Source of the DNA: Firmicutes bacterium HGW-Firmicutes-15
Lineage (GTDB): Bacteria; Bacillota; Syntrophomonadia; Syntrophomonadales; Syntrophomonadaceae
Assembly (NCBI GenBank): GCA_002840245.1
Contig: PHAA01000004.1
Coordinates: 1 to 64,000 of the forward strand
Direction: 5' to 3'
Length of the DNA stretch: 64,000 bases
The position numbers and the translations under genes are program-made. Shown here one piece after another: positions 10,677-64,000 of this stretch (the stretch's first letter is position 1; each line of letters starts with the position of its first letter). Below the pieces are notes generated by a model. The model had not been told where the DNA came from, searched no databases, and saw only the letters and a program-made list of their open reading frames with translations.

Positions 10677-12698
10677 ATGAAAAAAAAGATATGGAGCTGC
10701 TGGTTAATTCTAGCTCTTGTTTTCCTTCTTGTGGGCACTGGATCCTGTGTAGCAGCAAACCAGGTGTTTCAGGATGCGAATGCTCACTGGGCTAAAGACT
10801 ATATCAATCAACTTTCTAGCTTGGGCTATATTGCAGGGAATCCAGATGGTACTTTTAAACCGGATAAAAGTATGACCAGAGCCGAATTTACCAGTCTTTT
10901 AATTAGTTGCATGGGAATTACTCCCAGCGACAAAACCAGCCGTAATTTTAGCGATACCGCTGGACATTGGGCATTAGCACCAATCAATGAAGCTGCCAAG
11001 CTCGGTATTTTAGAGCCCAGTGAATATTCGAAGGGTCTGGTGCCTAACGGTGCTATTAAACGCAGCGAAGCCTGCGCAATGCTGGTTCGTGCCCTGGGCA
11101 AGAGTCCCACGAATGCAATGACCACCTTTAAAGACAACGATAAAGTGCAGCTTAGCGATTACCGTGGCTATATTAAAACAGCCTCTGATTTAGGCCTTAT
11201 GTCAGGCTATCCCAATGGTAATTTTGAACCTTTTAACGAACTGCCAAGAGGTCAAGCTTGTACGGTTTTATATAAATACTTGGCCCAGCAGGGTAAAGTC
11301 CCGGCCAGCCCGATTCCTGTCACAGAGACTTCCCCTACCACACCTGTTAGTACCGGTAGTATAAGATATGTGACTATAGGAAATGACTTGTACGATAGTA
11401 AAACTGTCCCTGTATCTTTTATCATTAATTACATAGAAGTGCCGGTCAAGTCTATGTCAGTCAGCAGTTCTAATATTAATGTCAATAACACTTATACCCT
11501 TAAAATGGACAGTGATAGCGACAACCCGGATATCGTCATCAATAATATACGTTACGGAATTGACAAGCTTACGGTTAGTGGAGATAAGCTGGTAGTCTCA
11601 CCGGGCTACCGTAAAATTTATAAATTTAAAGCAGGAGAATATGGCTATAATAGCGACTATGTCAGCTTATACGTTAAATCAGCCAATCAGGGTTATTACT
11701 TGTCTGATATGGGAATTATTGATGAATATAGAGTGAAGGTTGGCAGCCAGACTTATAATCTAAGCACTGATAAGATTACCATTGCCACCAATGCCTCTGG
11801 AGGCTCTACAGGTAAACGCAGTTTTTATGATATTAAGCAAATAGACCTGGCCCCGAAAGATACGATAATGCAGTTGGTAGCTACCGACTCGGTGGTCATG
11901 GATCAACTGGGGATCGCAGATGTTGCTGCCATTTTTGTGGATAATACCACTATTGCTTTGAACAGTATTAAGAAAATTGACTTTATTATGGGTGGAAAGA
12001 AGCATGCTCTCTCTGAAGTTACCATTGATGCTACCGGGAATTTTAGTGGAGGGGGAAGGGACAAGGTATATCCCTATAACCAGGTGATGATGATTATTGA
12101 CGATATGCAGTATAAAATTAATTTATTAAATATAAACAAATCGAAATTCATTTTTTACTGCGATAAAGGCATCAGCCAGGAATGGGTTATAGTAGATGGT
12201 GAATACTATGATGTGTCTGATGTTAAGATCATTAAAGGAACTTCTATTTACGGTTTAGATCAGGCCATTGTAGTGCAACGTAACCTGATACGCATAGGGG
12301 GGCAGCAGTACAAGCTAGATTCTGATTTTAAATGTCGGGTAGATAATAAAATATATGCTATTAATTCAATCGAATATAGTTCTGCTCTGCTGGCTACTAT
12401 CATAGATATCGGGTCTCTGGCAGATACTACCCTAGCCAACCAACCGCTTGAAATCGTATTTTTCAAAGGTAATTCTAGATACCAGGAAGGGACCAGCAAC
12501 GTCTCTATCTATACTGGCAGTAAGTGGTTAACTTTTGATCAAATATTTATATCTGATCCTGCCCATTTCACTTATCAGGACACAAGTTATAACCTGATTG
12601 AAGCCAAGATTAAGATAAATGATAAGGAGTTTAAAGCAACAGATACCGCTTGGCATGGAGCTACTCAGGTTCTGGATATATACATTGAAGAACTATAA
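10677..12698 (+). CDS. Secreted S-layer homology (SLH) domain protein
   Basis: This 673-residue exported protein has an N-terminal signal peptide (KKK, then a hydrophobic stretch to about residue 27). Three SLH domains follow (about 30-75, 90-135 and 150-200), with motifs AHWAKDYI, GHWALAPINEA and the repeated NPDGTF/YPNGNF and TRAEF/KRSEA/PRGQA elements. They anchor proteins to secondary cell-wall polymers of a Gram-positive wall. A Thr/Pro-rich linker at about 205-225 leads to a 450-residue C-terminal part rich in beta-forming, Asn, Asp and Tyr residues that I do not recognise. GGGGAGG precedes the ATG, and a strong terminator follows at 12751. It is a single-gene unit, probably a surface-layer or adhesion protein. 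Confidence 0.85.
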   Translation: MKKKIWSCWLILALVFLLVGTGSCVAANQVFQDANAHWAKDYINQLSSLGYIAGNPDGTFKPDKSMTRAEFTSLLISCMGITPSDKTSRNFSDTAGHWALAPINEAAKLGILEPSEYSKGLVPNGAIKRSEACAMLVRALGKSPTNAMTTFKDNDKVQLSDYRGYIKTASDLGLMSGYPNGNFEPFNELPRGQACTVLYKYLAQQGKVPASPIPVTETSPTTPVSTGSIRYVTIGNDLYDSKTVPVSFIINYIEVPVKSMSVSSSNINVNNTYTLKMDSDSDNPDIVINNIRYGIDKLTVSGDKLVVSPGYRKIYKFKAGEYGYNSDYVSLYVKSANQGYYLSDMGIIDEYRVKVGSQTYNLSTDKITIATNASGGSTGKRSFYDIKQIDLAPKDTIMQLVATDSVVMDQLGIADVAAIFVDNTTIALNSIKKIDFIMGGKKHALSEVTIDATGNFSGGGRDKVYPYNQVMMIIDDMQYKINLLNINKSKFIFYCDKGISQEWVIVDGEYYDVSDVKIIKGTSIYGLDQAIVVQRNLIRIGGQQYKLDSDFKCRVDNKIYAINSIEYSSALLATIIDIGSLADTTLANQPLEIVFFKGNSRYQEGTSNVSIYTGSKWLTFDQIFISDPAHFTYQDTSYNLIEAKIKINDKEFKATDTAWHGATQVLDIYIEEL

Positions 12699-49034: not shown

Positions 49035-50153
49035 TCATTTAGAAACAGCATCTACTAAACTACGGAAATAATTGCAATTCTCTATTAGATTAGGCCCATG
49101 TTTAAAGAGACCTCCACCTACCAGAAAAATAACATCAGATCCATATACCTCAATCATATCTGGGATATTGCTTATACTCATTCCTCCGCCGGGGCAGGGG
49201 AAACTAGTTTTAAGATTGCCCATGTCGACAGAAGTTCCTTTAACTATACTTTGGCATTCTTCGCGGGTAAAAGAGAAACGCCCACCATAATTGGGGTAAA
49301 TGGTCCCATCTGCACCAGCTAGGCGCATTATTTGTCCAAACAAGGCGAAATGAGATATACCATTATCAGAACCGAGGACATAGCTTCCCAGGAAAGCTGG
49401 ATGACTAAAGATCGGGAGTGCAATGGTATCGTCTTCCGCCAAGAATCTCATGGTATCAAAACCAACCAAACCCGGTGCCAGCAATAACCCCTTGGCTCCA
49501 TTTTCTTTGGCATATCTGGCCCTGCTTACTAGTTCGTTATGCGGGGCAGTAATGTTCGCTGCATAAATACATTTCTGCCCGGTTTCACGGTTTGCGCGTT
49601 CAACCGCTTCTGCACACAATCTGACTCGCTCCTCAAAAGGGGCAAAACTTTGATTGGTAAGGCCATGATCATCTTTAATAATATCAATTCCACCCAAAGC
49701 AAACTGATAAGACAGTTCAGCTAGTTTTTCGCTGCTCAATCCCATCGGCTTTAGGGCAGTAAAAAGCAAGGGTCTTTTTGGCACTTTTAGCAGCTCCCTC
49801 AACCCTGCCTTTCCGAACCTGGGGCCTTTAAATAGCTGTAATAATGAATCGGGAAGCTTAATCTCTTCGACCCGATATCCTGGTTTGATACTAATGTTGC
49901 CAAAGATAACATTTAGAAGCTGGGTCAACTCATTTGAGGCCGTTTCAATTGCGAAACTTATGGTAGCCTGATATTTTTCTAGTCCGTCTGGAACGAATTT
50001 AGTTATTTGCCCAACCAGGTGATCTTGAATAAAACCTGACGGTACTAATTCTGCGGGAAATTCCACGGTTTGCTCCAGGCAAAGGTCATGAGCCCTGGCA
50101 TAAGCCTCATTCTCTGTTCCCGCTATCCGGTAGACAATTGAGAATCTTTCCAT
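49035..50153 (-). CDS. RuBisCO-like protein (form IV), cupin-linked
   Basis: This 372-residue protein is a form IV RuBisCO homologue and is unlikely to fix CO2. Active-site positions are mixed: Lys135 in TALKPMG matches catalytic Lys175 of RuBisCO, and Lys160-Asp-Asp in IIKDDHG matches the carbamate Lys201 and Asp203, but the metal ligand Glu204 is His163. His251 in FSHPAF and the phosphate loops PGGG (321-324) and GGG (346-348) are kept. GGGGAGGC precedes the ATG. A cupin gene lies 142 nt upstream in the same direction. In Rhodospirillum rubrum an RLP isomerises 5-methylthioribulose-1-phosphate and a cupin releases methanethiol; the same role is proposed here by analogy. Confidence 0.82.
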   Translation of the reverse strand: MERFSIVYRIAGTENEAYARAHDLCLEQTVEFPAELVPSGFIQDHLVGQITKFVPDGLEKYQATISFAIETASNELTQLLNVIFGNISIKPGYRVEEIKLPDSLLQLFKGPRFGKAGLRELLKVPKRPLLFTALKPMGLSSEKLAELSYQFALGGIDIIKDDHGLTNQSFAPFEERVRLCAEAVERANRETGQKCIYAANITAPHNELVSRARYAKENGAKGLLLAPGLVGFDTMRFLAEDDTIALPIFSHPAFLGSYVLGSDNGISHFALFGQIMRLAGADGTIYPNYGGRFSFTREECQSIVKGTSVDMGNLKTSFPCPGGGMSISNIPDMIEVYGSDVIFLVGGGLFKHGPNLIENCNYFRSLVDAVSK

Positions 50154-51933: not shown

Positions 51934-51962
51934 TAGACATTATTAAAAAAATAGAATATAAT
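51934..51962 (+). promoter_or_regulatory. Promoter of the DUF3842/CooT transcription unit
   Basis: TAGACA (51934-51939, five of six consensus bases) and a perfect TATAAT (51957-51962) are spaced by exactly 17 nt. The predicted start of transcription is a few bases before the first structured element, so that element would be the 5' end of the RNA. Confidence 0.7.
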
Positions 51963-51974
51963 GGGATTTAATCT

Positions 51975-52086
51975 TGAACTATGAAGGTTCATGAAGATAT
52001 TGTTCTAAGAAGCAATAAAGCAACAGTTAGCCACGAAGGTTGAACAGACTGCAGGAGCGGTCATTCGGCGTTTGTGGCTTTTTTTT
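51975..52086 (+). ncRNA. Tandem structured leader RNA A1-A2, ends in a terminator hairpin
   Basis: Two copies lie head to tail. A1 (51975-52028) has the core CTATGAAGGTT (51979-51989) and closes by AACT/AGTT pairing. A2 (52029-52079) has the core CCACGAAGGTT, an outer stem AGCCAC/GTGGCT and an inner hairpin GACTGC-AGGA-GCGGTC (52047-52062). Eight T residues follow the outer stem (52079-52086), so A2 can act as a rho-independent terminator. The same core occurs in the pair at 53642-53775. Position downstream of a promoter and upstream of metal-handling genes suggests a riboswitch-type leader. Confidence 0.55.
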
Positions 52087-52168
52087 GGAGGGAGAAGATT
52101 AATGAGTTAAGAAATGATATTAACAAGGATTTGTTATATTATTGTCCAAAAAGGGGTGGAGAGAAAGT

Positions 52169-52606
52169 TTGAGGGTAGCGGTAGTAGATGCTCAAGGAGG
52201 CGGAATAGGGAGAATAATTGTAGAGAAGCTACGCCAGGAGATGGGGGATTCCTGTCATATCATTGGGCTAGGGACCAATGCCATAGCCTCTTCCATTATG
52301 TTAAAAGCCGGTGCCAATGAGGGAGCCAGTGGTGAAAATGCGGTGGCTCACTGTGTCGCTAAGGTCGATGTGATTGTGGGTTCTATTGCCATTATTGCAG
52401 CACATTCCTATTTAGGTGAACTCACTCCGTATATGGCAGAGGCCATTGCTTCAGCAGACGCGCTTAAGGTGCTCATGCCGCTAAACCGTTACGGCATAGA
52501 AATTAGTGGTGAGATCGATGAGCCATTGCCTTTGCAGGTCAGCCGCTTGGTAAGTAGGGTAAGGCAGATATATGATAGCAGGAAATCAAGAACTGTTAAA
52601 AAGTAG
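52169..52606 (+). CDS. DUF3842 family protein
   Basis: This is a 145-residue protein. The N-terminus VAVVDAQGGGIGRIIVEKLR forms a Rossmann-like glycine-rich loop, and VDVIVGSIAIIAAHSYLGEL and LMPLNRYGIEI follow. TTG at 52169 is taken as start, with GGAGAG 5 nt upstream; an upstream TTG at 52142 has no ribosome binding site. The function is unknown. Its place between the structured leader and the CooT-DUF4198 gene suggests a part in nickel or related metal metabolism. Confidence 0.7.
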   Translation: MRVAVVDAQGGGIGRIIVEKLRQEMGDSCHIIGLGTNAIASSIMLKAGANEGASGENAVAHCVAKVDVIVGSIAIIAAHSYLGELTPYMAEAIASADALKVLMPLNRYGIEISGEIDEPLPLQVSRLVSRVRQIYDSRKSRTVKK

Positions 52607-52687
52607 GCGGTTACATTTTGAAAGGGTTATAAGAAAGTCATTGAGAAGGAAAATCTGCACCTGCGCATAAAGGATGGAGGTATGCAA

Positions 52688-53488
52688 ATGTGTGAAGCCA
52701 ACGTTTATATCAACCGGGGAGGGCAGGAGGAACTGCTCATGGAGAGAGTGGATCGAATAGTTCCAGGTGAAGATAACAGTATTTTTATGGAAAACATTTT
52801 CGGAGAACGTCGGATAATTATAGCCCGAATCAAGGAAATGGAACTGGTACATCACCGTATTTTGCTAGAAGATATAAGAGAGGAATCTGAAAACCATCAT
52901 CTGGAGCTTTGGTTGGAACCGGATACGGATCATGGCCATTTCCATCCCGGGGAAGAAGTACGGTTGAAGCTAAATAAGGGCTACAATATGACTTCGGACA
53001 GCGAAGCAGAATTTTCCGCCACCCAAGCTTTTTGGGTCAATGAAGGGGTGGTGCAAGAGGTCGAGATACATGACCATGAAGGAACTATGGAGGTTATCCT
53101 TAGCCAACAATTAGATGGTTTGGTGCAGGTGTATGTGCGAGAGCAAGGGGATCAGGAAAGATATGCCATCACCTTGGTGGAGGTTGGTCATCATCACCAT
53201 CATGGGCTGAAGGCCGCCGGTCTTCCCCTGGAAATTGTCCCCTGTGACTACAGCCATGCGCGGTTGGGAGAAAGCTATGAGATACGAGTGCTGAAAGAGG
53301 GCCAACCCCTGGTCGGAATAGAAGTACGGGCGACCTATAGCAGCACCCAGAATAGAGAGTACCCTCACCTCTTAACAACAGATGAAGAGGGTCGCGCGAA
53401 GCTGTTTCTTACTGCCCGTGGGAACTACCTGTTTTCGGTGACTGATGAAAATATAATTAGCACTTTTACCCTAATAAAAAGTTTTTAA
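52688..53488 (+). CDS. CooT-like nickel-binding domain fused to DUF4198
   Basis: This is a 266-residue protein. The ATG at 52688 is supported by GGAGG at 7 nt; the ATG at 52682 is only 1 nt from it. This start gives Met-Cys, the Cys2 that binds nickel in CooT, the chaperone of carbon monoxide dehydrogenase. Residues 1-62 look CooT-like (VYIN, VDRIVPGEDNSIFMENIFGERRIII shortened here). Residues about 70-266 resemble DUF4198, a nickel-uptake-associated beta-sandwich, with a run of five His (168-172) and several other His clusters. No signal peptide is seen, so it is probably cytosolic. A nickel chaperone or store is proposed. Confidence 0.72.
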   Translation: MCEANVYINRGGQEELLMERVDRIVPGEDNSIFMENIFGERRIIIARIKEMELVHHRILLEDIREESENHHLELWLEPDTDHGHFHPGEEVRLKLNKGYNMTSDSEAEFSATQAFWVNEGVVQEVEIHDHEGTMEVILSQQLDGLVQVYVREQGDQERYAITLVEVGHHHHHGLKAAGLPLEIVPCDYSHARLGESYEIRVLKEGQPLVGIEVRATYSSTQNREYPHLLTTDEEGRAKLFLTARGNYLFSVTDENIISTFTLIKSF

Positions 53489-53500
53489 TAACTTGAGATC

Positions 53501-53629
53501 ATGCCGCAGGTTATTAGGCTGATGAATGAAGAGGGGATTTGTAACGATCTACTTGCAGACCATAAAGTTGATACTATAAATTATCTTGGTTGGAAAGCAG
53601 GAATAATTACCAGCATAGCAGATAGTTAA
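53501..53629 (+). CDS. Possible 42-residue small protein
   Basis: An ATG 12 nt after the CooT-DUF4198 stop opens 42 codons with a balanced composition (MPQVIRLMNEEGIC, then acidic and hydrophobic residues, ending ITSIADS). It stops 12 nt before the next RNA element. The ribosome binding site is poor, and I recognise no family. It may be a real small gene or a remnant. Confidence 0.3.
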   Translation: MPQVIRLMNEEGICNDLLADHKVDTINYLGWKAGIITSIADS

Positions 53630-53641
53630 ATATTAATAGGC

Positions 53642-53775
53642 ACTATGAAGGTGCTGATGAGTTTTGGAATTGACTTAGTGATGTGTCCCGATAAAAGATA
53701 AATGCATAGTAATTAATCATACCATGAAGGTGTTTTGACGGATTTAGTGACCGCCGATACTGTTCATGGTTTTTT
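53642..53775 (+). ncRNA. Tandem structured leader RNA B1-B2 upstream of the Nik/Opp-type transporter
   Basis: B1 (53642-53710) is closed by ACTATG/CATAGT and has the core CTATGAAGGTG. B2 (53721-53770) is closed by ACCATG/CATGGT and has the core CCATGAAGGTG. Both also share TTAGTGA (53675-53681; 53744-53750) and CCGATA (53688-53693; 53754-53759). B2 is followed directly by six T residues, so it can terminate transcription about 150 nt before the permease gene. The 11-nt core is the same (CYAYGAAGGTK) as in the pair at 51975. Confidence 0.58.
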
Positions 53776-53925
53776 GTGCTTGTCATTTAACAGGAGAATC
53801 TTAACTCACCCGGGATGTAATTATGAGCCATGGTTTGTTCTCATGTGAACAAAGCCGGTATAACAAAGACAACTTGAAGAACAAGGTGTGTTTGCAGGTG
53901 CAAATGAAGGCAGGGAGGTTGTTGC

Positions 53926-54945
53926 TTGAACCCAAAAGCAATGATTATTAAAAAGATAACAAAAAGAACATTAGGGTTAATACTTACTATGTTTATACTG
54001 TCTGTTGGAGTTTTCTATTTGGCGCGTCTTGCTCCTGGTGATCCGCTGCAATCATTTTACGGCGATGCAGTTGAATCCATGACCACACAGGAACTGGATG
54101 CTGCGAGAATACGATTAGGTCTGGACGGCCCGATATATGCTCAATACACGAAATGGATCGGCAACGCTTCACAAGGTGATTTTGGCCTATCGTTGAAATA
54201 CAAGACGCCGACTCTGGATGTTGTTTCTCCGCTAATCGGAAATACGTTGATTCTTGGGGGCACAGCATATATCCTTGTTTTCGTTTTAGCCACTCTCCTT
54301 GCCTTGTTTTGTGCAATGAATGAAGATTCCTTATTTGACAGAATCATATGCAAGGTGGGAACAGCGGCCTATTATATACCTCCGTTTTGGCTGGGCGTGG
54401 TTTTAGTATTGATTTTTAGTATTAATCTTCACTGGTTGCCAAGCAGCGGGGCTTATGATATCGGCAAATCGGGCGACATATTAAATCGAATACGACATAT
54501 GATCTTGCCGTTGATAGTTATGATACTCAGCCACCTGTGGTATTACGCCTACATGATAAGAAATAAGCTTTTGGATGAAGTGCGAAAGGATTATGTGCTT
54601 TTGGCTAAATCCAAGGGTTGTACAAAAACTGAAATCGTTTTTAAGCATTGTTTTCGCAATGTTGCCCCGACTATCGTCAGCATCATGGCCATTTCGATTC
54701 CTCATGTATTGAGTGGAACCTATATTGCAGAGTCAGTTTTCAATTATCCCGGTATTGGGGCTCTTTCTGTTCAAAGTGCAAAATATCACGATTACAATTT
54801 ATTGATGCTGGTTGTACTGATTACCGGCCTATTGGTTATTTCGAGCAGTATCATTGCACAATCGATAAATGAGGTAATTGACCCAAGAATGAAATTGACG
54901 GAGGTGTCGGCATGGCGGGAAAAAACAGCGAGCAGTTCGTCATAG
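53926..54945 (+). CDS. Nik/Opp-type ABC transporter permease (NikB/DppB-like)
   Basis: This is a 339-residue inner-membrane permease of the peptide/nickel family with six predicted helices. The N-terminus GVFYLARLAPGDPLQSFYGD and the EAA-like loop DYVLLAKSKGCTKTEIVFKH are typical. Start is TTG with GGGAGG 7 nt upstream; the ATG at 53941 lacks a ribosome binding site. It overlaps the second permease by 34 nt. The operon holds both permeases, a lipoprotein and both ATPases; nickel as substrate is inferred from the neighbouring CooT gene and shared leader element. Peptides are the alternative. Confidence 0.8.
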   Translation: MNPKAMIIKKITKRTLGLILTMFILSVGVFYLARLAPGDPLQSFYGDAVESMTTQELDAARIRLGLDGPIYAQYTKWIGNASQGDFGLSLKYKTPTLDVVSPLIGNTLILGGTAYILVFVLATLLALFCAMNEDSLFDRIICKVGTAAYYIPPFWLGVVLVLIFSINLHWLPSSGAYDIGKSGDILNRIRHMILPLIVMILSHLWYYAYMIRNKLLDEVRKDYVLLAKSKGCTKTEIVFKHCFRNVAPTIVSIMAISIPHVLSGTYIAESVFNYPGIGALSVQSAKYHDYNLLMLVVLITGLLVISSSIIAQSINEVIDPRMKLTEVSAWREKTASSSS

Positions 54946-55817
54946 TTGGCGCCAATTACAAGACACACATACCGGAGGCTAAAAAACCGTCTATTATGTA
55001 TAGATTAAAGGGAAAACCGATTATATCAATTGTCATTCTCGGCATTATCGTATTGGGGTGTGTTTTTGCAGAGCAGGTGTATAATCATGACCCGACCGGT
55101 TTCTATCTGCAAAATCTGAGTGAAGCGCCAAATTCGGAATTCTATTTCGGAACAGACTCGCTGGGACGTGATATCTTTTCCATGATCTGGTATGGCGGAC
55201 GAGCCTCAATTATGATTGGTCTGCTGAGCATGACGATTATTACTGTGATAGGTGTTGTATACGGCTGTATTAGCGGTACCGCCAATTCACGCATTGACGC
55301 GATCATGATGCGTGTTCCGGAAATTATTAACAGTATTCCAATATTGTTGCTAGTATTACTGCTTACGTCGGTTATGGGAACGCAGAATATTATGAAGATA
55401 TCTTTTGTCATCGGCGTGACCGGCTGGTGTGCCTTGGCAAGAATCGTGCGCAGCGAAGTCAGGCAGATACGCAGCAGTGAATATGTGCTTGCCGCACGAT
55501 GCATGGGAGGAGGCTTCCTGCATACGATGCTAAGACATTTAATACCGAATTTGGTTTCTACAATTATGTTTGTGGTTGTATCCAGTATAAGTTCAAGCAT
55601 GTCAATGGAGTCTACGCTGAGTTTTCTTGGCCTGGGGCTTCCAGTAGATGTAATTTCCTGGGGCAGTATGCTTTCTCTTGCAAACAAAGCGCTGCTGTTA
55701 AATACTTGGTGGGTCATAATAATTCCGGGCGTATTTTTAATAATTACTTTGGTGTGTATAACAAATATCGCATATTTCTTCAGAAGAGAAACAAACAAAC
55801 AGGAAAGTATTCTATAA
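54912..55817 (+). CDS. Nik/Opp-type ABC transporter permease (NikC/DppC-like)
   Basis: This is a 301-residue permease with six helices. A cytosolic N-terminus is followed by a first helix at about 34-55, the sequence YFGTDSLGRDIFSMIWYGGR and the EAA-type loop SEYVLAARCMGGGFLHTMLRHLIPN read in two parts. GGAGGTG precedes the ATG. It overlaps the first permease gene and is followed by the binding protein gene after 43 nt. Confidence 0.82.
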   Translation: MAGKNSEQFVIVGANYKTHIPEAKKPSIMYRLKGKPIISIVILGIIVLGCVFAEQVYNHDPTGFYLQNLSEAPNSEFYFGTDSLGRDIFSMIWYGGRASIMIGLLSMTIITVIGVVYGCISGTANSRIDAIMMRVPEIINSIPILLLVLLLTSVMGTQNIMKISFVIGVTGWCALARIVRSEVRQIRSSEYVLAARCMGGGFLHTMLRHLIPNLVSTIMFVVVSSISSSMSMESTLSFLGLGLPVDVISWGSMLSLANKALLLNTWWVIIIPGVFLIITLVCITNIAYFFRRETNKQESIL

Positions 55818-55860
55818 ATGGAAATTGCCTTTAGAATAATAAAATTATAGGAGGATTATT

Positions 55861-57441
55861 ATGAATTACAAGAAAAATATTAAGACGCTATTGGTAATCG
55901 CACTATGTTTAGGGGTTATTTTCGGCTTTACAGGGTGTGCTTCAAAAGGCAGCACTACCAAGAACGCAACCGATTTGTCCAATACACTGGTATATGCAGG
56001 CGAGAATACTGATACTATCAACCCTGTTGTCACCGGTCAAAGCGAGTTGGTGAGTATTATTTATTCTGGTTTGATGAAGTATGACGCTTCCGGCAAACCC
56101 ATTGTTGACTTAGCTAAAAGCTATACTTATGATGAAAATTCACTTACTTACACCTTCAATCTGAGGCCTGGGGTTTTGTGGCACGATGGTAAGCCCTTAA
56201 CTGCTGAGGACGTTGTGTTTACATATAAAGAGCTGACAACAGATAAAACCTTGTCTTCAAGTATGCTTAGTGATTATAAGGATATCGCAAGTGTTAAAGC
56301 TAAGGATGAGAACACAGTTGAGATAACGCTTTCGCAATATAACGCTGCAATGCTTAATAATTTTACCATCGGCATCATTCCGAAACATCTGCTTGAGGGC
56401 CAGGACCTGACTACATCCTCCTTCAACCAAAATCCTGTAGGCACCGGTCGTTATAAGTTTGTTAAGTGGGATAAAGCCGGGGGAACTGTAGAAATGGTGA
56501 AGAACGAAAAATACTACGATAAGGTTCCGACCATTGAAAAAATAGTATATAAAACTGTTGCTGTGGAAAGTACAAAGGCCACTATGTTGCAATCCGGCGA
56601 AGCGGACCTGGCATGGTTAAATGCAAAATATGCAGAGAATTTCCGTAATAAGAATGGCTTTAAAAATTACGATTTTAAAACAGCTGACTACCGTGCAGTG
56701 TCAATGGATTTCAGAACTAAGTTCTGGACCCAAAACAAGGATTCCGTTGGTGTGCTTAACTACGCTATTAATAAGGAGGCTATCGTAAAAAGCGTGCTTA
56801 CAGGTCAGGGAGGTGCCGCGTACAGCCCCATACAGATGAACGCTTTTGGCGGCAATAAAAATGCTGATATTTACTCTTATGATCTTGATAAGTTTGCCAA
56901 AGAGATGGGAAAGCTCGGATGGACTAAAGGCAACGACGGCATCTATGAGCGCAATGGCCAAAAGTTCCACTTCACAATTCAGGTGCGTGATTACGAAGAA
57001 GAGCGCGTAGATATCGCAAATATTGTTTCCAAGCAGTTGAAAGATGCAGGCGTTGATATGGAAATGGTTCTGGTTACTAAGTTCGATTGGAATGCTGGTT
57101 ATAACGGATTTTTGGCCGGTTTTGCAGTTGAGTTTGATCCGGATGGAAACTATAAGCAATTCACTACAAACGGAAGCGCAAACACAATGAAATATTCCAA
57201 TCCGGTAGTGGACAATTTACTTACCCAAGCAAGACATTCCAAAGATGTTAATGAAAGAAAGAGCTTGTATGGTAAATTTGAAGATGCATTTGCAAAGGAA
57301 CCGGCGTCTGTCTTGATCGCATATCTTGACGGCAATTATGTAGGCATTAGCGGGCTTCAAGGTCTCAACACAACCAGGGTTCTCGGACACCATGCAGTTG
57401 GCGTTATGTGGAACATTGAAGAGTGGAAACTTTCCAAATAG
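55861..57441 (+). CDS. Family 5 extracellular solute-binding lipoprotein
   Basis: This is a 526-residue substrate-binding protein of the peptide/nickel class. The signal peptide ends in the lipobox FTGC (Cys about 27), so it is a lipoprotein on the outer face of the membrane. Family features are SLTYTFNLRPGVLWHDGKPL followed by TAEDVVFTY, and the C-terminal KEPASVLIAYLDGNYVGISG. AGGAGGATTATT precedes the ATG. It delivers the substrate to the two permeases encoded upstream. Binding residues for nickel or a metallophore cannot be assigned by eye. Confidence 0.87.
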   Translation: MNYKKNIKTLLVIALCLGVIFGFTGCASKGSTTKNATDLSNTLVYAGENTDTINPVVTGQSELVSIIYSGLMKYDASGKPIVDLAKSYTYDENSLTYTFNLRPGVLWHDGKPLTAEDVVFTYKELTTDKTLSSSMLSDYKDIASVKAKDENTVEITLSQYNAAMLNNFTIGIIPKHLLEGQDLTTSSFNQNPVGTGRYKFVKWDKAGGTVEMVKNEKYYDKVPTIEKIVYKTVAVESTKATMLQSGEADLAWLNAKYAENFRNKNGFKNYDFKTADYRAVSMDFRTKFWTQNKDSVGVLNYAINKEAIVKSVLTGQGGAAYSPIQMNAFGGNKNADIYSYDLDKFAKEMGKLGWTKGNDGIYERNGQKFHFTIQVRDYEEERVDIANIVSKQLKDAGVDMEMVLVTKFDWNAGYNGFLAGFAVEFDPDGNYKQFTTNGSANTMKYSNPVVDNLLTQARHSKDVNERKSLYGKFEDAFAKEPASVLIAYLDGNYVGISGLQGLNTTRVLGHHAVGVMWNIEEWKLSK

Positions 57442-57545
57442 TTGAAAAACTAAGTTAGTATAAAAATGTTGCAGTAATTGTAAGATGTGCTGGGTGTTTA
57501 ACAAACACCTAGCACTCACTTGTATGAAATATGGAGGCACAGCCA

Positions 57546-58565
57546 ATGATACAACCTGTTTTGCAACTTAAAAACTTATCAGTTAGCTTCGATACGCCAA
57601 ATGGTGAGATTGAAGCTGTCAGAGATGTTAGTCTGTCGCTCAACAAAGGCGAAATTTTAGCTGTTGTAGGGGAATCCGGATGCGGTAAAACCGTTATGAG
57701 TCAATCAGTTCTGAAGCTGCTTCCCAAAACTTCAAGGATAAAGCAGGGGCGAATTATTGTTGATGGCAACGATATAACGGATTATAAAGAAAAACAAATG
57801 CGTAAGCTGCGCGGAAGTGTTTTGTCTATGGTATTCCAAGATCCCATGACAACGTTAAACCCAACGATTCCGATAGGAAAGCAGATTACAGAATCTATCA
57901 TAAAACATAACAAGATCAGCAAAGAGCTGGCAAGAAAAAGAGCGTTGGAAATGCTGGATTTGGTAGGCATTGATAATCCTCTACATATGTTTTCGTTACA
58001 GCCACACTTTTTTTCGGGTGGAATGCGCCAAAGATGTGTATTGGCAATTGCTCTGACCGCCAATCCCAAGGTGCTGTTTACGGATGAAGCTACTACTGCG
58101 CTCGACGTAACAGTTCAGGCAAAAATACTCGATCTTCTTTTAGATATTCGGAACAAGACCGGTATATCAATAGTCTTTATTTCTCATGATTTGGGAGTTG
58201 TTGCGCGTATTGCAGACCGTGTGGCTGTTATGTACGCTGGGAAAATAGTTGAAATTGGCACGGTGGAAGAGATATTTTATGATCCCCGGCACCCCTACGT
58301 GTGGGGATTAATGTCAGCATTGCCATATCTAACTAAGGAGGAAGGGAATCTCACCTGTATTCCTGGTATGCCACCGGTTATGCTGGACCCTCCACCCGGT
58401 GACGCATTTGCGGTTCGAAACGAATTTGCGCTGGCAATTGATTACGAAAAAATGCCGCCAATGTTTCAAATTTCGCCCACGCACAGCGCGGCTACATGGC
58501 TGCTTGACGAAAGGGCGCCAAATATTACATCACCACTTTCACTGAAAAGGATGGCCGTATCATGA
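57546..58565 (+). CDS. Nik/Opp-type ABC transporter ATPase (NikD/OppD-like)
   Basis: This is a 339-residue ATPase. Walker A is GESGCGKTVM, the signature FSGGMRQRCVLAIAL and Walker B LFTDEATTALDVTVQ, where Ala replaces the usual Pro after DE. The C-terminal oligopeptide-type domain (about 250-320) includes a GMPPVMLDPPPGDAF motif but lacks the usual Cys cluster. The ATG at 57546 has GGAGG 7 nt upstream; an ATG 15 nt earlier would include that site. The stop overlaps the next start as ATGA. Confidence 0.87.
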   Translation: MIQPVLQLKNLSVSFDTPNGEIEAVRDVSLSLNKGEILAVVGESGCGKTVMSQSVLKLLPKTSRIKQGRIIVDGNDITDYKEKQMRKLRGSVLSMVFQDPMTTLNPTIPIGKQITESIIKHNKISKELARKRALEMLDLVGIDNPLHMFSLQPHFFSGGMRQRCVLAIALTANPKVLFTDEATTALDVTVQAKILDLLLDIRNKTGISIVFISHDLGVVARIADRVAVMYAGKIVEIGTVEEIFYDPRHPYVWGLMSALPYLTKEEGNLTCIPGMPPVMLDPPPGDAFAVRNEFALAIDYEKMPPMFQISPTHSAATWLLDERAPNITSPLSLKRMAVS

Positions 58566-59449
58566 ACCCAGATGATATTTTAAGTGTTTGTGATTTAAAA
58601 CAGCATTTTTATATAAACAAAGATTTAACTATCAAGGCTGTAAATGGTGTGACTTTTCAGGTTAATTGGGGCGAAGTTTTTGGCATTGTAGGTGAAACTG
58701 GCTCAGGAAAATCAACGGTTGCACGTACAATTATGGGAATACACCCAGCCACGGGCGGTGAAGTTTATTTTAAGGGCAATAAGATATCCGAAAAAAAGAT
58801 ATATAAGCAGAATAAAAAAGATATATACAAAAATATGCAGATTATATTCCAGGACTCAGCTGCCGCTCTGAATCCAAGAATGACTGTCGAACAGATAATT
58901 ACAGAGCCGCTAAAAGTTAACCGTATTATTAAAGACAAAAATGAACTTCAAGAAAAATTAGAGTCCTTGCTTTTGGAAGTGGGCCTGGATAACACCTATA
59001 TAAGAAAATATCCAGCTGAGATTTCAGGTGGTCAGCGTCAGCGTGTAGCTATTGCAAGATGCTTAAGCACGAGTCCTGATTTGATTATTGCTGATGAGCC
59101 AATTGCATCATTGGATGTTTCAATTCAGGCGCAGATAATTACCTTGTTTCAACGCTTGCAGCGCGAGCGTGGGTTTTCATTCCTCTTAATTGCACATGAC
59201 CTCTCCATTATCAAGTTTATCTGTGACAAGGTGGCCGTAATGCTTCATGGCAGGCTTATGGAAATTGCAACAACAAAAGAATTATTTGAAAATCCGCTCC
59301 ACCCATATACACAGTCGCTTTTGTCTGCCATTCCTGTACCAGACCCTATCTTTGAAAGAAATAAAAAGATTATGCCCTTTGATGTAAAACGCGCAAAAAC
59401 CAATGGGGAAATGGTTGAAGTATCACTTGGGCATTACGTTTTGAAATAA
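58562..59449 (+). CDS. Nik/Opp-type ABC transporter ATPase (NikE/OppF-like)
   Basis: This is a 295-residue ATPase, the second energising subunit of the transporter. Walker A GETGSGKSTVAR, signature ISGGQRQRVAIARCL, Walker B LIIADEPIASLDVS and the switch His in LIAHDLSI are intact. The C-terminus has the family NPLHPYTQSLLSAIP. It starts in the ATGA overlap with the previous gene. A 186-nt gap with an AT-rich hairpin (59478-59502) separates it from the methyltransferase. Confidence 0.87.
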   Translation: MNPDDILSVCDLKQHFYINKDLTIKAVNGVTFQVNWGEVFGIVGETGSGKSTVARTIMGIHPATGGEVYFKGNKISEKKIYKQNKKDIYKNMQIIFQDSAAALNPRMTVEQIITEPLKVNRIIKDKNELQEKLESLLLEVGLDNTYIRKYPAEISGGQRQRVAIARCLSTSPDLIIADEPIASLDVSIQAQIITLFQRLQRERGFSFLLIAHDLSIIKFICDKVAVMLHGRLMEIATTKELFENPLHPYTQSLLSAIPVPDPIFERNKKIMPFDVKRAKTNGEMVEVSLGHYVLK

Positions 59450-59635: not shown

Positions 59636-60409
59636 ATGGATAACCTAAAAAATGAAATAGCATTAAGATGGAATTCTCTATGTAATGATTATGACGAACA
59701 GTATTGTCACGGATTAAGAAGCAAAGAAGAAGAAGAGCAATGGCTAAAGTTTCTGCGAGATATTGTTGGAGACGAATCCAAAGGGATACTAGATATTGGA
59801 ACAGGAACTGGGTTTTTAGCTATTTTATTGGCCAAGCTTGGTCACCATTGTACTGGAATTGATATATCAGAAGGAATGTTAAACGTAGCCAAGAATAAAG
59901 CTCAAAAAAATAATTTACATATAGATTTTGGAATTGGAGATGCAGAAGATTTACCTCTTGATGATAAAAGTTTCGATATTGTAATTAATAGGCATTTGCT
60001 GTGGACTATTTCACAGCCAGAAAAAGCATTAAAAGAATGGATAAGGGTTTTAAAGCCGGGGGGGAAATTAATAATAGTGGATGGAGACTGGTTTTATAAA
60101 AATAAAGGAAATGATATTAAAAAATGGATAGGAAATACTTTGATTAAGATTAGTGAGTTTGATGATCCAGGTAAACATTCCAGCAATTATAGTGAAGATA
60201 TTAAAGCTATGCTTCCAATGATGAAAGATAAAAACGCAAGAAATGTACATGAATTAGTAAAAGGTTGTGGATTATGCAATATTGAATTAATTCCGATGCT
60301 TGAAGTTGACCAGGTTGAGAAGAAAATAATGCCTTTTAAGTACAGATTGGCAAATCCATATAAGAGAAGTTGTGTTACTGGGGTAAAGACTTCGCTTTCA
60401 TCAATATAA
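59636..60409 (+). CDS. Class I SAM-dependent methyltransferase next to the transporter
   Basis: This is a 257-residue methyltransferase of the Methyltransf_11/25 type. AdoMet motif I is [18 protein letters not shown] (about 46-63), followed by the acidic GIDISEGML and motif IV near [11 protein letters not shown]. The ATG at 59636 follows AAGGGGGT. It lies behind the Nik/Opp-type operon and is markedly AT-rich. The last about ten codons are the antisense of a pdxS remnant, so the C-terminus (VKTSLSSI) was probably gained when the cluster joined that site. The substrate is unknown; a metallophore or metal-compound role would be guesswork. Confidence 0.75.
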
Positions 60410-60690
60410 TCAATTCCCAACGATTCTAGGATCTGGGCTTCTACAAAGTGACCGATACGGCACTGGCCATGACCGGAATGGTTACCGTGTCCATGATCCG
60501 TAGAATTATGGCGGGGTTAGCCATCGGGGCTACTCCGCCCGTAGGTCGGATATCTGCTGGAACACGCTCCAGGGCCATCACCGCACAGGCTCCGGCTTTT
60601 TTAGCAATTATTGCCTGTTCCGGAGTGGCAACGTCTATTATCACTCCACTTAAGCATTTGGGCTAGGCCACTCTTCGATGCAAAGTTTCC
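60380..60690 (-). pseudogene. pdxS: pdxS (PLP synthase) remnant, frameshifted and truncated
   Basis: Read on the minus strand, the N-terminal third of PdxS is recognisable: GLAQMLK, then after a frameshift near 60649 [18 protein letters not shown] and [19 protein letters not shown], then after a second frameshift near 60463 [20 protein letters not shown] and ESEVFTP. The rest is missing, cut off where the methyltransferase gene begins. There is no start or stop that would give a working protein. It shows that the right end of the transporter/methyltransferase cluster abuts an old pdxS locus. Confidence 0.8.
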
Positions 60691-61013
60691 TTTTTCTACA
60701 ATTACTTCTGACAAAAAACCATACCTTTAAAAAAACGTATTAAAACCATGGATATACTGAAGATTAGCTAATAGTGCCTGACTGTCAATAGAATCCAGTG
60801 AAAAATAAGGGGGTTCAAAGAGATATTTTTTACCTGTTATTGACTAAATAATACATATATAACTATTAGTTATTTCACAGATAATATGTTATTTGTTAAG
60901 ATGATGCAATAATATAAATTAGATGAGAGTGAAAGAAAGAGCTGGAGTCAGACTATGTAGTCTTTAAGGTGGATGGATTTTTTTGGTTCACCATCGGGGA
61001 GAGGGGAACACAA
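60691..61013. other. Intergenic region ahead of the arsenosugar-type cluster
   Basis: This AT-rich stretch has a TTGACT box at 60840-60845 with a weak TATTAG at 60864-60869, a possible promoter for the next cluster. No gene was recognised. The last bases carry GAGAGGGGAA as ribosome binding site. Confidence 0.4.
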
Positions 61014-61469
61014 ATGCTAGAACAACAAGCATCCCAGATTGCTAGAGAGGAAATGAACTCGGGCAGTAATTGCTGTCAGTCTGTTTTAGTGGCGGCCGGT
61101 AAGGTCTGGAATATGCCAGTAGGGGATGATATATTGGCTGCTGCCAAGATGTTCGGCGGAGGAATGGGCAGCGGTTGTACGTGTGGGGCACTGGCTGGCA
61201 TGGTTATGGCTGCAGGGATTCGTGAACAATATTGTCAACATCCACGTGGTTCCCAATTGGTCCAGGACTTACATGACCAATTTAAGGAGGAATTTGGAGC
61301 TACCTGCTGTCGAGTTATAAAGAAAAAGCGGAGTGTTATAGAAAAAATTGGTAACAAGGCTTGCGTGGAATTGACAGGCAAGACAGCGGCCTTGTTAGTT
61401 AGACAGTGGGAGGGGATAGATGATGGAGCAGAAACCGCTAGTGTCAATTATCATACCCACGCTAAATGA
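61014..61469 (+). CDS. C_GCAxxG_C_C family redox protein
   Basis: This is a 151-residue Cys-rich protein of the C_GCAxxG_C_C family. The pattern has NCCQSVLVAA near residue 20, SGCTCGALAGMVMAAG (about 60-75, the GCxCGA core), then YCQHPRGS and TCCRVIKKK. These proteins are thought to bind a metal cluster or take part in redox chemistry and are common near organoarsenic or selenium genes in anaerobes. The ATG at 61014 follows GAGAGGGGAA. Its end overlaps the next gene by about 47 nt, so the cluster is translationally coupled. Confidence 0.8.
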   Translation: MLEQQASQIAREEMNSGSNCCQSVLVAAGKVWNMPVGDDILAAAKMFGGGMGSGCTCGALAGMVMAAGIREQYCQHPRGSQLVQDLHDQFKEEFGATCCRVIKKKRSVIEKIGNKACVELTGKTAALLVRQWEGIDDGAETASVNYHTHAK

Positions 61470-62100
61470 AGCCCGGAAAATTAGAGAACTGCTCCAAGAA
61501 TTACAGTTCTTATCCGGGATTGAAATCATTGTTAGTGACGGCGGAAGTACCGACGATACATTAAAAATTTGCCACACTTATCCCGTAAAGGTGTGTACAG
61601 GTACAGCTGGCCGCGGGATACAGTTAAATATTGGAGCACAAGCAGCCAGGGCTGATATTCTGCTCTTTTTACATGCTGATTGCCACATATCAACAGAGCT
61701 TATTCAGCAGCTAATTGATGCTGTTGGGCGGGGACAGATGTGGGGATGTGCCCAGATCACCTTTGATGATCCGGCTGTCTTCTTTAAGTGCTTGGCTTTT
61801 GTCTCTAATTGGAGGGCAAGAGTTTTGAGCAGTTGTTTTGGCGATCAGGCTATCTTTTGTCAAAAAGATTATTTTAATAAAATCGGTATGTTTCCTGAGA
61901 CTATTTTTCTCGAGGATTTAGCTTTCTCTCATATAGCGCGACGTCAGCAGAGAGCTTTTGTAGTAGAGGGAAAAGTGCTCAGTAGTTCCCGGCGCTTTCA
62001 TGATGGCGGGAAGTGGAAAACGTTTATTAAAATGCAGTGTATTAAATCATTATATTTTCTGGGGGTTAGGCCGGACCGGCTCTACTCCATGTATAGATAA
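61423..62100 (+). CDS. TIGR04283-type glycosyltransferase (arsenosugar biosynthesis family)
   Basis: This is a family 2 glycosyltransferase of about 225 residues. It begins VSIIIPTLNEARKIRELLQE with the DGGSTDDT motif and has the FLHADCHIS metal motif (about 82-90). The C-terminus holds an amphipathic helix pair and ends SLYFLGVRPDRLYSMYR. GGGAGGGG lies 7 nt before the ATG at 61423 (4 nt before one at 61420). It is followed by the DUF2064-type partner, the two being the usual paired transferases of arsenosugar-type clusters. Confidence 0.85.
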   Translation: MEQKPLVSIIIPTLNEARKIRELLQELQFLSGIEIIVSDGGSTDDTLKICHTYPVKVCTGTAGRGIQLNIGAQAARADILLFLHADCHISTELIQQLIDAVGRGQMWGCAQITFDDPAVFFKCLAFVSNWRARVLSSCFGDQAIFCQKDYFNKIGMFPETIFLEDLAFSHIARRQQRAFVVEGKVLSSSRRFHDGGKWKTFIKMQCIKSLYFLGVRPDRLYSMYR

Positions 62101-62118
62101 AAAAGGGGGGAGTATGGC

Positions 62119-62844
62119 ATGAATACAGCTGTTGTGATTATGAGTAAAACTCCTGTGCCAGGATATACCAAAACTCGGCTGATATCCGTACTTTCTCCCC
62201 AGGAATGCGTTGCTTTTCATAGGGCCTGTTTAAACGATATTGTAAAAAACATCAATGTTCTAGGGCTGCCAGTATTTCTTTACTATGCACCTGCACCTTT
62301 AGAGGATAAAAGCTTGGTTGACTGGCAAGACAATAGTTGGTGGGAACTGAGCGAGGAATTATTGTCCAACGTAAGCATGTATCCGCAGCTTGGCAAAGAT
62401 TTGGGGGAACGCATGTATCAAGCATCCCTGGAGCTTTTATCTAACCGGGAAGCAGTTGTGTTTCTGGGGAGTGACCTGCCAGATATACCAACGAGTGTTC
62501 TTATCCAAGCCATGGAAAAATTGGATTCTAATGACGTGGTGATTGGTCCCGCTGAGGATGGGGGCTATTATCTTTTAGGAATTAAACAAGCTTATTCAGG
62601 TCTGTTTGAGAATATTTCATGGGGGAGTAGTGAGGTATTAGTTGAAACATTGGATAGGATAAAAAGGAATGGTTTAAGCTTTGCCCTGCTCAAAATTCAA
62701 CGTGATATTGATACTTGGGAAGATATGCAAGACTACTACTTGCGTGGACAGGAATATGTAGAAACTCAAAACCTGGATTCATACCAGGTAGTAAAAGAAG
62801 TCATAGAACGATTCAATATGCTGTCGGCAGAAGACAAAGGATAA
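62119..62844 (+). CDS. TIGR04282/DUF2064-type glycosyltransferase (arsenosugar biosynthesis family)
   Basis: This is a 241-residue nucleotide-transferase-like protein. The N-terminus VVIMSKTPVPGYTKTRL is the hallmark, followed by GSDLPDIPTSVL and GPAEDGGYYLLGIK (about 145-175). GGGGGGAG precedes the ATG with suitable spacing. It stands between the family 2 glycosyltransferase and the AhpD-like gene. Confidence 0.86.
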   Translation: MNTAVVIMSKTPVPGYTKTRLISVLSPQECVAFHRACLNDIVKNINVLGLPVFLYYAPAPLEDKSLVDWQDNSWWELSEELLSNVSMYPQLGKDLGERMYQASLELLSNREAVVFLGSDLPDIPTSVLIQAMEKLDSNDVVIGPAEDGGYYLLGIKQAYSGLFENISWGSSEVLVETLDRIKRNGLSFALLKIQRDIDTWEDMQDYYLRGQEYVETQNLDSYQVVKEVIERFNMLSAEDKG

Positions 62845-62859
62845 CGAATGGAGGTCATC

Positions 62860-63192
62860 ATGGAAACGTATTACAATCCCAACGATTTATCTAAATTTGC
62901 ATCGATGGGCGAGGAAGCGCCAGAACTGTGGGAACTATTTATGTCATATTACAGTTCGGTTTTTAAAGAGGGAGCTTTAAGTGCTAGAGAGAAAGCCCTA
63001 ATTGCTCTGGCTGTGGCCCATGCTGTTCAGTGCCCATACTGCATTGATTCTTATACACAGGAAGCCTTGGAAAAAGGGTCCAATAAAGCCCAGATGACGG
63101 AAGCCATTCATGTGGCTGCTGCGATTCGTGGCGGGGCTGCCCTGGTACATGGTGTACAGATGAAAAACATAGCTGATAAATTAAGTTTTTAG
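62860..63192 (+). CDS. AhpD/carboxymuconolactone decarboxylase-like protein of the arsenosugar cluster
   Basis: This is a 110-residue AhpD-fold protein with the redox pair CPYC in QCPYCIDSYTQ (about 58-68) and the HVAAAIRGGAAL helix. The ATG at 62860 is preceded by GGAGGTCATC; an ATG 12 nt earlier would include that site. It matches the peroxidase-like proteins associated with arsenosugar biosynthesis genes. It ends just before the radical SAM gene. Confidence 0.82.
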   Translation: METYYNPNDLSKFASMGEEAPELWELFMSYYSSVFKEGALSAREKALIALAVAHAVQCPYCIDSYTQEALEKGSNKAQMTEAIHVAAAIRGGAALVHGVQMKNIADKLSF

Positions 63193-63195
63193 AGA

Positions 63196-64000
63196 ATGAG
63201 TATTATGAATTCAAATGAGAATAACATTCATTCCCAGGTTGGATATTTGAATAATATAGAGGGTATTAAACCATTTTCGGATAGAATCAAGGAAATAGGT
63301 TTTAACTCCCTTAAGAGTAATCCTACTATCACTACCTTGCAGGTCAATGTAGGTAAGGTGTGCAATTTAATGTGCAAGCACTGTCATGTTGAAGCCGGTC
63401 CACATAGAACCGAATCCATGACGAAGGATACCATGTCACAATGTCTTAGTATTCTCATGAAGAACCCCATTCCCATCCTTGATATTACCGGCGGAGCCCC
63501 GGAATTAAATCCGAACTTATCTTGGTTTATTAAAGAAGCAATCAAAGTAGGCTGCCATGTAATAGTCAGGACAAATCTAACGGTTTTAAGACAATACGAA
63601 TACACTAACATGCCTGAATTTTATGCTGATAATAATGTTGAGCTAGTTTCTTCTCTGCCTTATTACAGTGAAAAAGATACCGATCGACAACGTGGAGAAG
63701 GTGTATTTTTGAATTCTATTGCGGTACTATCGAGGCTGAATGAACTTGGATATGGTCAGAGGGATGGATCTTTAAGACTAAATCTAGTTTTTAACCCTGG
63801 AGGTGCTTTTTTACCACCATCTCAAGATACAATAGAAGGTGATTTCCGCAGGATATTATCGAAGCAATACGGAATAAGTTTTAATAATTTATACACCATT
63901 ACTAACGTTCCAGTAGGAAGGTTTCTAACCTTTCTATATGATTCGAAAAATTTGCATAGATATATGGAACGTTTAACCAGCAGCTTTAATTCATCAACAA
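63196..64000 (+). CDS. Radical SAM protein of the arsenosugar (ArsS-like) family, 3' truncated by window
   Basis: The frame is open from ATG 63196 (or 63205) to the window end, about 268 codons. The cluster motif CNLMCKHCH (CxxxCxxC) follows LQVNVGKV near residue 53, and the segment ITGGAPELNPNLSWFIKEA is typical of radical SAM/Cys-rich proteins linked to arsenosugar synthesis. A later RLNLVFNPGGAFLPPSQ fits the family. The C-terminal Cys-rich part is beyond the window. No ArsM-type methyltransferase is visible, so either it lies beyond the window or this is a variant system. Confidence 0.85.
   Translation, partial: MSIMNSNENNIHSQVGYLNNIEGIKPFSDRIKEIGFNSLKSNPTITTLQVNVGKVCNLMCKHCHVEAGPHRTESMTKDTMSQCLSILMKNPIPILDITGGAPELNPNLSWFIKEAIKVGCHVIVRTNLTVLRQYEYTNMPEFYADNNVELVSSLPYYSEKDTDRQRGEGVFLNSIAVLSRLNELGYGQRDGSLRLNLVFNPGGAFLPPSQDTIEGDFRRILSKQYGISFNNLYTITNVPVGRFLTFLYDSKNLHRYMERLTSSFNSST

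Follow-up and report, generated by a model that had tools for sequence, protein, structure and literature searches.

The locus and its two leaders

The window, that is, the whole stretch of 64,000 nucleotides of contig PHAA01000004.1 from Firmicutes bacterium HGW-Firmicutes-15 that was analysed, contains exactly four copies of the core CYAYGAAGGTK, at positions 51979, 52031, 53643 and 53722, all on the plus strand. A sequence-only reading of this DNA had described them as two pairs, and their exact positions and strand were recovered. The pairs lie, as it proposed, upstream of metal-associated genes, the first before those encoding DUF3842 and a CooT-DUF4198 fusion and the second before a Nik/Opp-type transporter operon. 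The second copy of either pair does run into a terminator with a T-run at its end, and the consensus-like promoter placed before the first pair is borne out by a sigma-70 match at 11 of 12 positions. The features are as follows.

51934..51962, plus strand: putative promoter of leader 1, TAGACA-17-TATAAT (consensus scan 11/12)
51975..51991, plus strand: leader 1 hairpin 1, TGAACT[ATGAA]GGTTCA (sequence and predicted fold; loops of this class are overrepresented 5' of related terminators)
52027..52043, plus strand: leader 1 hairpin 2, the predicted antiterminator, TTAGCC[ACGAA]GGTTGA (sequence and fold; outer pairs covary, 57-59 distinct relatives)
52029..52087, plus strand: leader 1 terminator, AGCCACGAA...TTTGTGGCT + T8, its 5' arm common to hairpin 2 (fold z = -5.5; covariance-model match 52024-52084; pair covariation)
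52169..52606, plus strand: DUF3842 gene (PF12953), probable TTG start (Pfam E 7.8e-49)
52682..53488, plus strand: CooT-DUF4198 fusion gene, domains of nickel-binding type (Pfam PF10133, PF10670)
53639..53655, plus strand: leader 2 hairpin 1, GGCACT[ATGAA]GGTGCT (sequence and fold)
53719..53733, plus strand: leader 2 hairpin 2, the predicted antiterminator, ATACC[ATGAA]GGTGT (sequence and fold; covariation in relatives)
53721..53775, plus strand: leader 2 terminator, ACCATGAA...TTCATGGT + T6 (covariance-model match 53715-53776, E 5.7e-6; fold)
53926..59449, plus strand: Nik/Opp-type ABC transporter operon, with two permeases, SBP_bac_5 and two ATPases (Pfam and NCBIfam for one permease, the binding protein and one ATPase; second permease and second ATPase by eye from the translations)
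59636..60409, plus strand: class I methyltransferase 3' of the transporter (Pfam PF08241)

The remaining 3.46 Mb of the home genome hold only 13 exact, scattered copies of the core, so that four of them inside 1.8 kb on a single strand, an event of about 1e-11 at the genome-wide rate, form a cluster beyond chance.

The surroundings offer some observations of their own. The methyltransferase that closes the Nik operon is perhaps a metallophore or cofactor gene, and in other genomes related methyltransferases directly follow the element described below (L045, L109, L075, L207, L210 and G049). Behind it, positions 60410-60670 look by eye like the remnants of a broken transporter gene. Positions 49035-50153 encode a RuBisCO-like protein, which does not reach the cut-offs set for the named enolase families and adjoins a cupin and a TcdA-like gene, and the region 60969-63960, with a C_GCAxxG_C_C protein, a TIGR04283 arsenosugar-type glycosyltransferase and more genes, looks like an arsenosugar cluster.

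Two mutually exclusive helices

Every core caps a small hairpin of the form stem-(A)NGAA-stem, in which the core reads ...CY[AYGAA]GGT.... The stems differ among the four copies yet pair in each of them (TGAACT/GGTTCA, TTAGCC/GGTTGA, GGCACT/GGTGCT and ATACC/GGTGT), and this local hairpin closing on the core is what copies 1 and 3 have in common with copies 2 and 4. In the latter two, CCAYGAA doubles as the 5' arm of the terminator (GCCACGAA...TTTGTGGC-T8 and CCATGAA...TTCATGG-T6), and since these bases are common to hairpin 2 and the terminator arm, the two structures are mutually exclusive. The longer-range pairing arms that had been read as the mark of conserved structure are accordingly reassigned: AGCCAC/GTGGCT and ACCATG/CATGGT are real but make up the terminator stems in copies 2 and 4, and for ACTATG/CATAGT of copy 3 no conservation is seen elsewhere, so that such arms were rejected as the conserved structure. 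A leader peptide starting at the ATG of ATGAAGGT was also rejected, as copy 2 carries ACG there.

Covariation was measured on an alignment A3 and on A5, which was enriched with covariance-model matches. Hairpin 2 scores 0.297 against 0.180 for shuffled alignments in A3 and 0.333 against 0.165 in A5, and the terminator 0.135 against 0.074 and 0.208 against 0.120, respectively; none of 500 shuffles, which do not model the relatedness of the sequences, reaches any of these values, and slid controls give far lower covariation than hairpin 2 or the terminator. At the terminator pair that involves the Y in AYGAA, A5 contains UA 43 times and CG 11 times. In 74 of 90 units, where 45 would be expected, the fourth pair of hairpin 2, whose bases are left free by the search pattern, is formed as AT, GC or TA, a count reached in 0 of 2000 shuffles. 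For the outer pair of the terminator, AT is seen in 45 and GC in 38 of the 90, against 44 expected for the two types combined (maximum 60).

Upstream of the terminators a further hairpin recurs. Among hairpins in the 200 nt upstream whose stems have 6 pairs or more, the loop ends in GAA in 48 of 115, compared with 1.25 of 49.6 in shuffled sequence, and at least one (N)NGAA hairpin followed by G occurs in 55 of 110 units, compared with 2-10% in flanking controls; by simple criteria, roughly half the units retrieved gave no hairpin 1. The common upstream loops are ATGAA, TGAA, AGAA, AAGAA and CGAA, on stems unrelated in sequence, such as GGTAGC[TGAA]GCTGCC, GGATGAC[CGAA]GTCATCC and TTAACC[ATGAA]GGTTAA, and no conservation is visible outside stems and loops.

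Covariation and relatives thus support the claim of a conserved tandem RNA structure, and not a one-off, by which metal genes are controlled through termination, and the covariance search that had been suggested as its test did find further copies with compensatory changes upstream of metal genes, with the outer pairs of both alternative helices covarying. It could be argued that these are ordinary intergenic intrinsic terminators resembling one another by chance, as the core of the second copies does lie in a terminator. This is hardly credible, however, given the conserved loop and GGT flank, the covarying second helix, which is incompatible with the terminator, the enrichment of upstream GAA hairpins and the gene association.

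Distribution and target genes

The tandem pattern, searched in 80 relatives, recovered besides the window two copies directly 5' of cbiM (L018, L021), and over 398 genomes of the phylum it gave mostly chance-like matches. When 84,980 species genomes were scanned for hairpin 2 together with the terminator, with no first hairpin required, at least 117 stretches matched. Among the matches listed, most hosts are anaerobic Bacillota such as acetogens, sulfate reducers and syntrophs, and further genomes come from Desulfobacterota, Nitrospirota-type bacteria, Spirochaetes and Synergistetes; the laboratory acetogen Sporomusa ovata DSM 2662 carries copies (L124, L125). A minority of matches (e.g., in Bacillus, Winogradskyella and Streptococcus) was judged to be chance and excluded by eye, unblinded. 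The first genes behind 90 units among the matches listed encode CbiM (14), DUF3842 (8), FmdE (8), SBP_bac_5 (7), Peripla_BP_2 (6), DUF4198 (3), a permease (3), a TonB plug (3) and CobN (2), and the seven ECF_trnsprt matches overlap with CbiM. The SBP_bac_5 proteins are of NikA type, the best NikA match having an E of 6.3e-124. HypA (L137), LarE (L129), CooT (L039) and an [FeFe] hydrogenase (L057), all named by eye, are single cases, and some genes, encoding LDH, UbiX-like flavoproteins and MATE proteins, have no obvious nickel link. No exporter was seen among the genes inspected. Nickel is the simplest common denominator of these targets, and cobalt is possible too.

The covariance model finds five copies of the element in the home genome, two of them in the window and the others 5' of a second Nik/Opp operon, of CbiM and of an [FeFe] hydrogenase. 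The five all stand with nickel-type genes, and each is preceded by an (N)NGAA hairpin, which carries one mismatch at the CbiM copy.

Some individual loci deserve mention. The home-genome hydrogenase lies on the minus strand of L248 (7956-9574) with AAGGT[ATGAA]ACCTT upstream, and the arrangement recurs at L057 in Syntrophomonas. On L248, too, an FmdE-domain gene (10685-11269) stands between DUF3842 and CooT-DUF4198, FmdE being among the commonest genes behind the element (8/90). At L068 (4669-5033) the element is directly 5' of a TM1266-family putative regulator of iron-only hydrogenase. On the minus strand of L215, from genome G059, which lacks DUF3842, three serial terminators of the element type (~2060-1500) precede a Peripla_BP_2-like gene, with GGTAAC[TGAA]GTTACC upstream of them; because an ATGGA loop occurs at this locus, the loop may be more generally (N)NGRA.

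Proposed mechanism and polarity

The median predicted energy is -3.6 kcal/mol for hairpin 2 and -22.6 kcal/mol for the terminator, which is the stabler of the two in 103 of 103 cases. The terminator being far stabler, read-through requires an agent that holds hairpin 2. As this agent would turn on importers and a nickel-free hydrogenase, it should act at low nickel, and Ni2+ itself is for that reason an unlikely ligand.

The current model proposes that two hairpins with (N)NGAA loops would fold one after the other in the nascent leader, hairpin 1 first. By default, the 3' arm of the terminator, once made, would displace the weak hairpin 2, and transcription would end short of the gene. Under nickel shortage, hairpin 2 would be kept closed by a trans-acting factor, most likely a protein touching both GAA loops, so that no terminator could form and the genes for uptake, chaperone and nickel-free replacement functions would be transcribed. 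The gene content is what suggests read-through under scarcity. The element is probably a leader whose two hairpins mediate transcription antitermination in a regulon of nickel, or possibly nickel/cobalt, limitation, and DUF3842 is the best candidate for its reader. The element itself is documented by its sequence parts, the covariation of both alternative helices, its wide distribution, its gene association and the energy gap.

The sequence-only reading had favoured a nickel or cobalt sensing riboswitch, of a divergent NiCo type or a new class. The families of Rfam 15 gave no match at gathering score in the window, nor at the element in 20 related loci, and at E<=10 the region yielded nothing except a chance nematode snoRNA. 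The Rfam run thus found neither NiCo (RF02683), at gathering score or at E<=10, nor a confident match to an unrelated family, and membership in NiCo or another Rfam family was rejected, the covariance-model searches being without match. Direct sensing of Ni2+ or Co2+ is also unlikely, considering that the hairpins would act as antiterminator and that the targets are importers and a nickel-independent hydrogenase: a metal ligand in the style of NiCo would have the wrong polarity, as a binder of the hairpins would turn uptake genes on.

It could still be that a small molecule or metal is bound directly in a pocket shared by the two GAA-loop hairpins, as in guanidine-II, whose two like hairpins with conserved loops and a variable linker the element recalls; moreover, no protein family tested occurs in every element-bearing genome. 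Such a ligand would nevertheless stabilise hairpin 2 and turn importers on when bound, which excludes Ni2+ or Co2+ as repressing signal, and with nothing visibly conserved outside stems and loops and no Rfam match, a ligand-binding riboswitch is unlikely.

Nickel and cobalt supply limits acetogenesis and CO and hydrogen metabolism in anaerobes, and the known nickel regulators are mostly DNA-binding proteins, e.g., NikR. A literature search of open-licence papers gave no prior description of the element. A nickel-scarcity RNA switch outside Rfam would make the nickel regulon of many anaerobes predictable from sequence.

Candidate readers of the element

That the reader is a protein is presumed in the antitermination model, and candidates were compared by their presence in 43 genomes picked for carrying the element. 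DUF3842 occurs in 41 of them, CooT in 36, ANTAR proteins in 28 and TM1266-like proteins in 25, while DUF3842 is found in 0 of 14 control genomes. Across 80 genomes of one phylum, all 15 with a strong match (E<1e-4) carry DUF3842 (Fisher p 1.3e-5), and at E<=0.01 it is present in 22 of 26 genomes with a match against 19 of 54 without (p 3.6e-5), p-values which are optimistic because of shared descent. A second, broader model found, by eye, variants 5' of nickel-type genes in 8 of 19 seemingly empty DUF3842-positive genomes and one plausible case in 21 DUF3842-negative genomes; pooled, the element is present in 30/41 and 2/39 genomes, respectively.

DUF3842 is highly conserved (DGQGGGIG, GTN, GENA, GE-TP) and is predicted with a pLDDT of 95 to adopt a Rossmann-like fold, which differs from known RNA-binding domains. 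It has no close solved relative, Foldseek giving weak Rossmann-type matches (best E 0.011), and no mention of it was found in the open-licence papers searched. Four element-bearing genomes (G059, G087, G453 and G455) contain no convincing DUF3842 even with a sensitive alignment-model search, and it cannot therefore be the sole reader. DUF3842 is thus the leading candidate for the reader rather than an established one, and may simply be another target of the element. That it is a new RNA-binding antiterminator, which alone or with CooT senses nickel status and holds the (N)NGAA twin hairpins closed, is a tentative proposal, rather on the unlikely side. If true, it would constitute a protein-RNA nickel control system across several bacterial phyla, and a nickel-scarcity switch of this kind would also give the uncharacterised DUF3842 a testable role.

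A serious possibility, if short of an even chance, is that the cis element works as proposed with DUF3842 a mere member of the regulon, the real reader being CooT or another protein. CooT dimers bind one Ni with a Kd of 9 nM (PMC6006190), CooT commonly adjoins DUF3842, and its presence is not significantly below that of DUF3842 in the 43 genomes (Fisher p 0.16). On the other hand, CooT is absent from 7 of these 43 and from 4 of 14 further strong-match genomes, all 14 of which have DUF3842; it was set aside as a good candidate of less complete presence. The TM1266-like NikR-C-type protein encoded behind the L068 copy was rejected as reader on its occurrence in 25/43 genomes.

Comparison with known systems

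The element shares with the NiCo riboswitch the context of Ni/Co metal genes. The NiCo aptamer is a four-way junction and serves exporters, whereas here twin hairpins precede importers and the opposite polarity is expected. The guanidine-II (mini-ykkC) RNA, which consists of two ACGR hairpins, resembles the element in the paired architecture noted above, but differs in loop sequence and gene context, and its ligand-on logic is unsuited to importers; ACGR loops were not encountered in the loop tally, and the Rfam scans were without match.

A close parallel in layout is the ANTAR dual-hexaloop element (EutV and NasR targets), in which the second of two hairpins is buried in the terminator and the loops are hexaloops with A1 and G4 at tight spacing (PMC8934654). 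Here as well there are two small hairpins, the second of which has bases in common with an intrinsic terminator, so that factor binding would block termination, and the home genome encodes one ANTAR protein, beside glnA. Instead of A1/G4 hexaloops, however, tetra- and pentaloops ending in GAA dominate, the distance from the upstream loop to hairpin 2 varies from ~16 to 166 nt, the regulon is one of nickel, and no ANTAR protein was found in 15 of the 43 genomes, although some of these absences may be an artefact of unfinished genomes. An ANTAR protein was thus rejected as reader, as loop rule and genome distribution fail, and a strict ANTAR target is highly unlikely. The best explanation is that the element works like an ANTAR target, although it departs from the loop rule and ANTAR proteins do not consistently accompany it.

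In its targets the element resembles the NikR regulon, which comprises the same kinds of genes, namely Nik transporters, NikMQO with NikK-type genes and, in the regulon predicted for Desulfovibrio, [Fe] hydrogenase (PMC545781). The difference lies in the level of control, as NikR works via a DNA operator, whereas the element would act on the RNA, after initiation.
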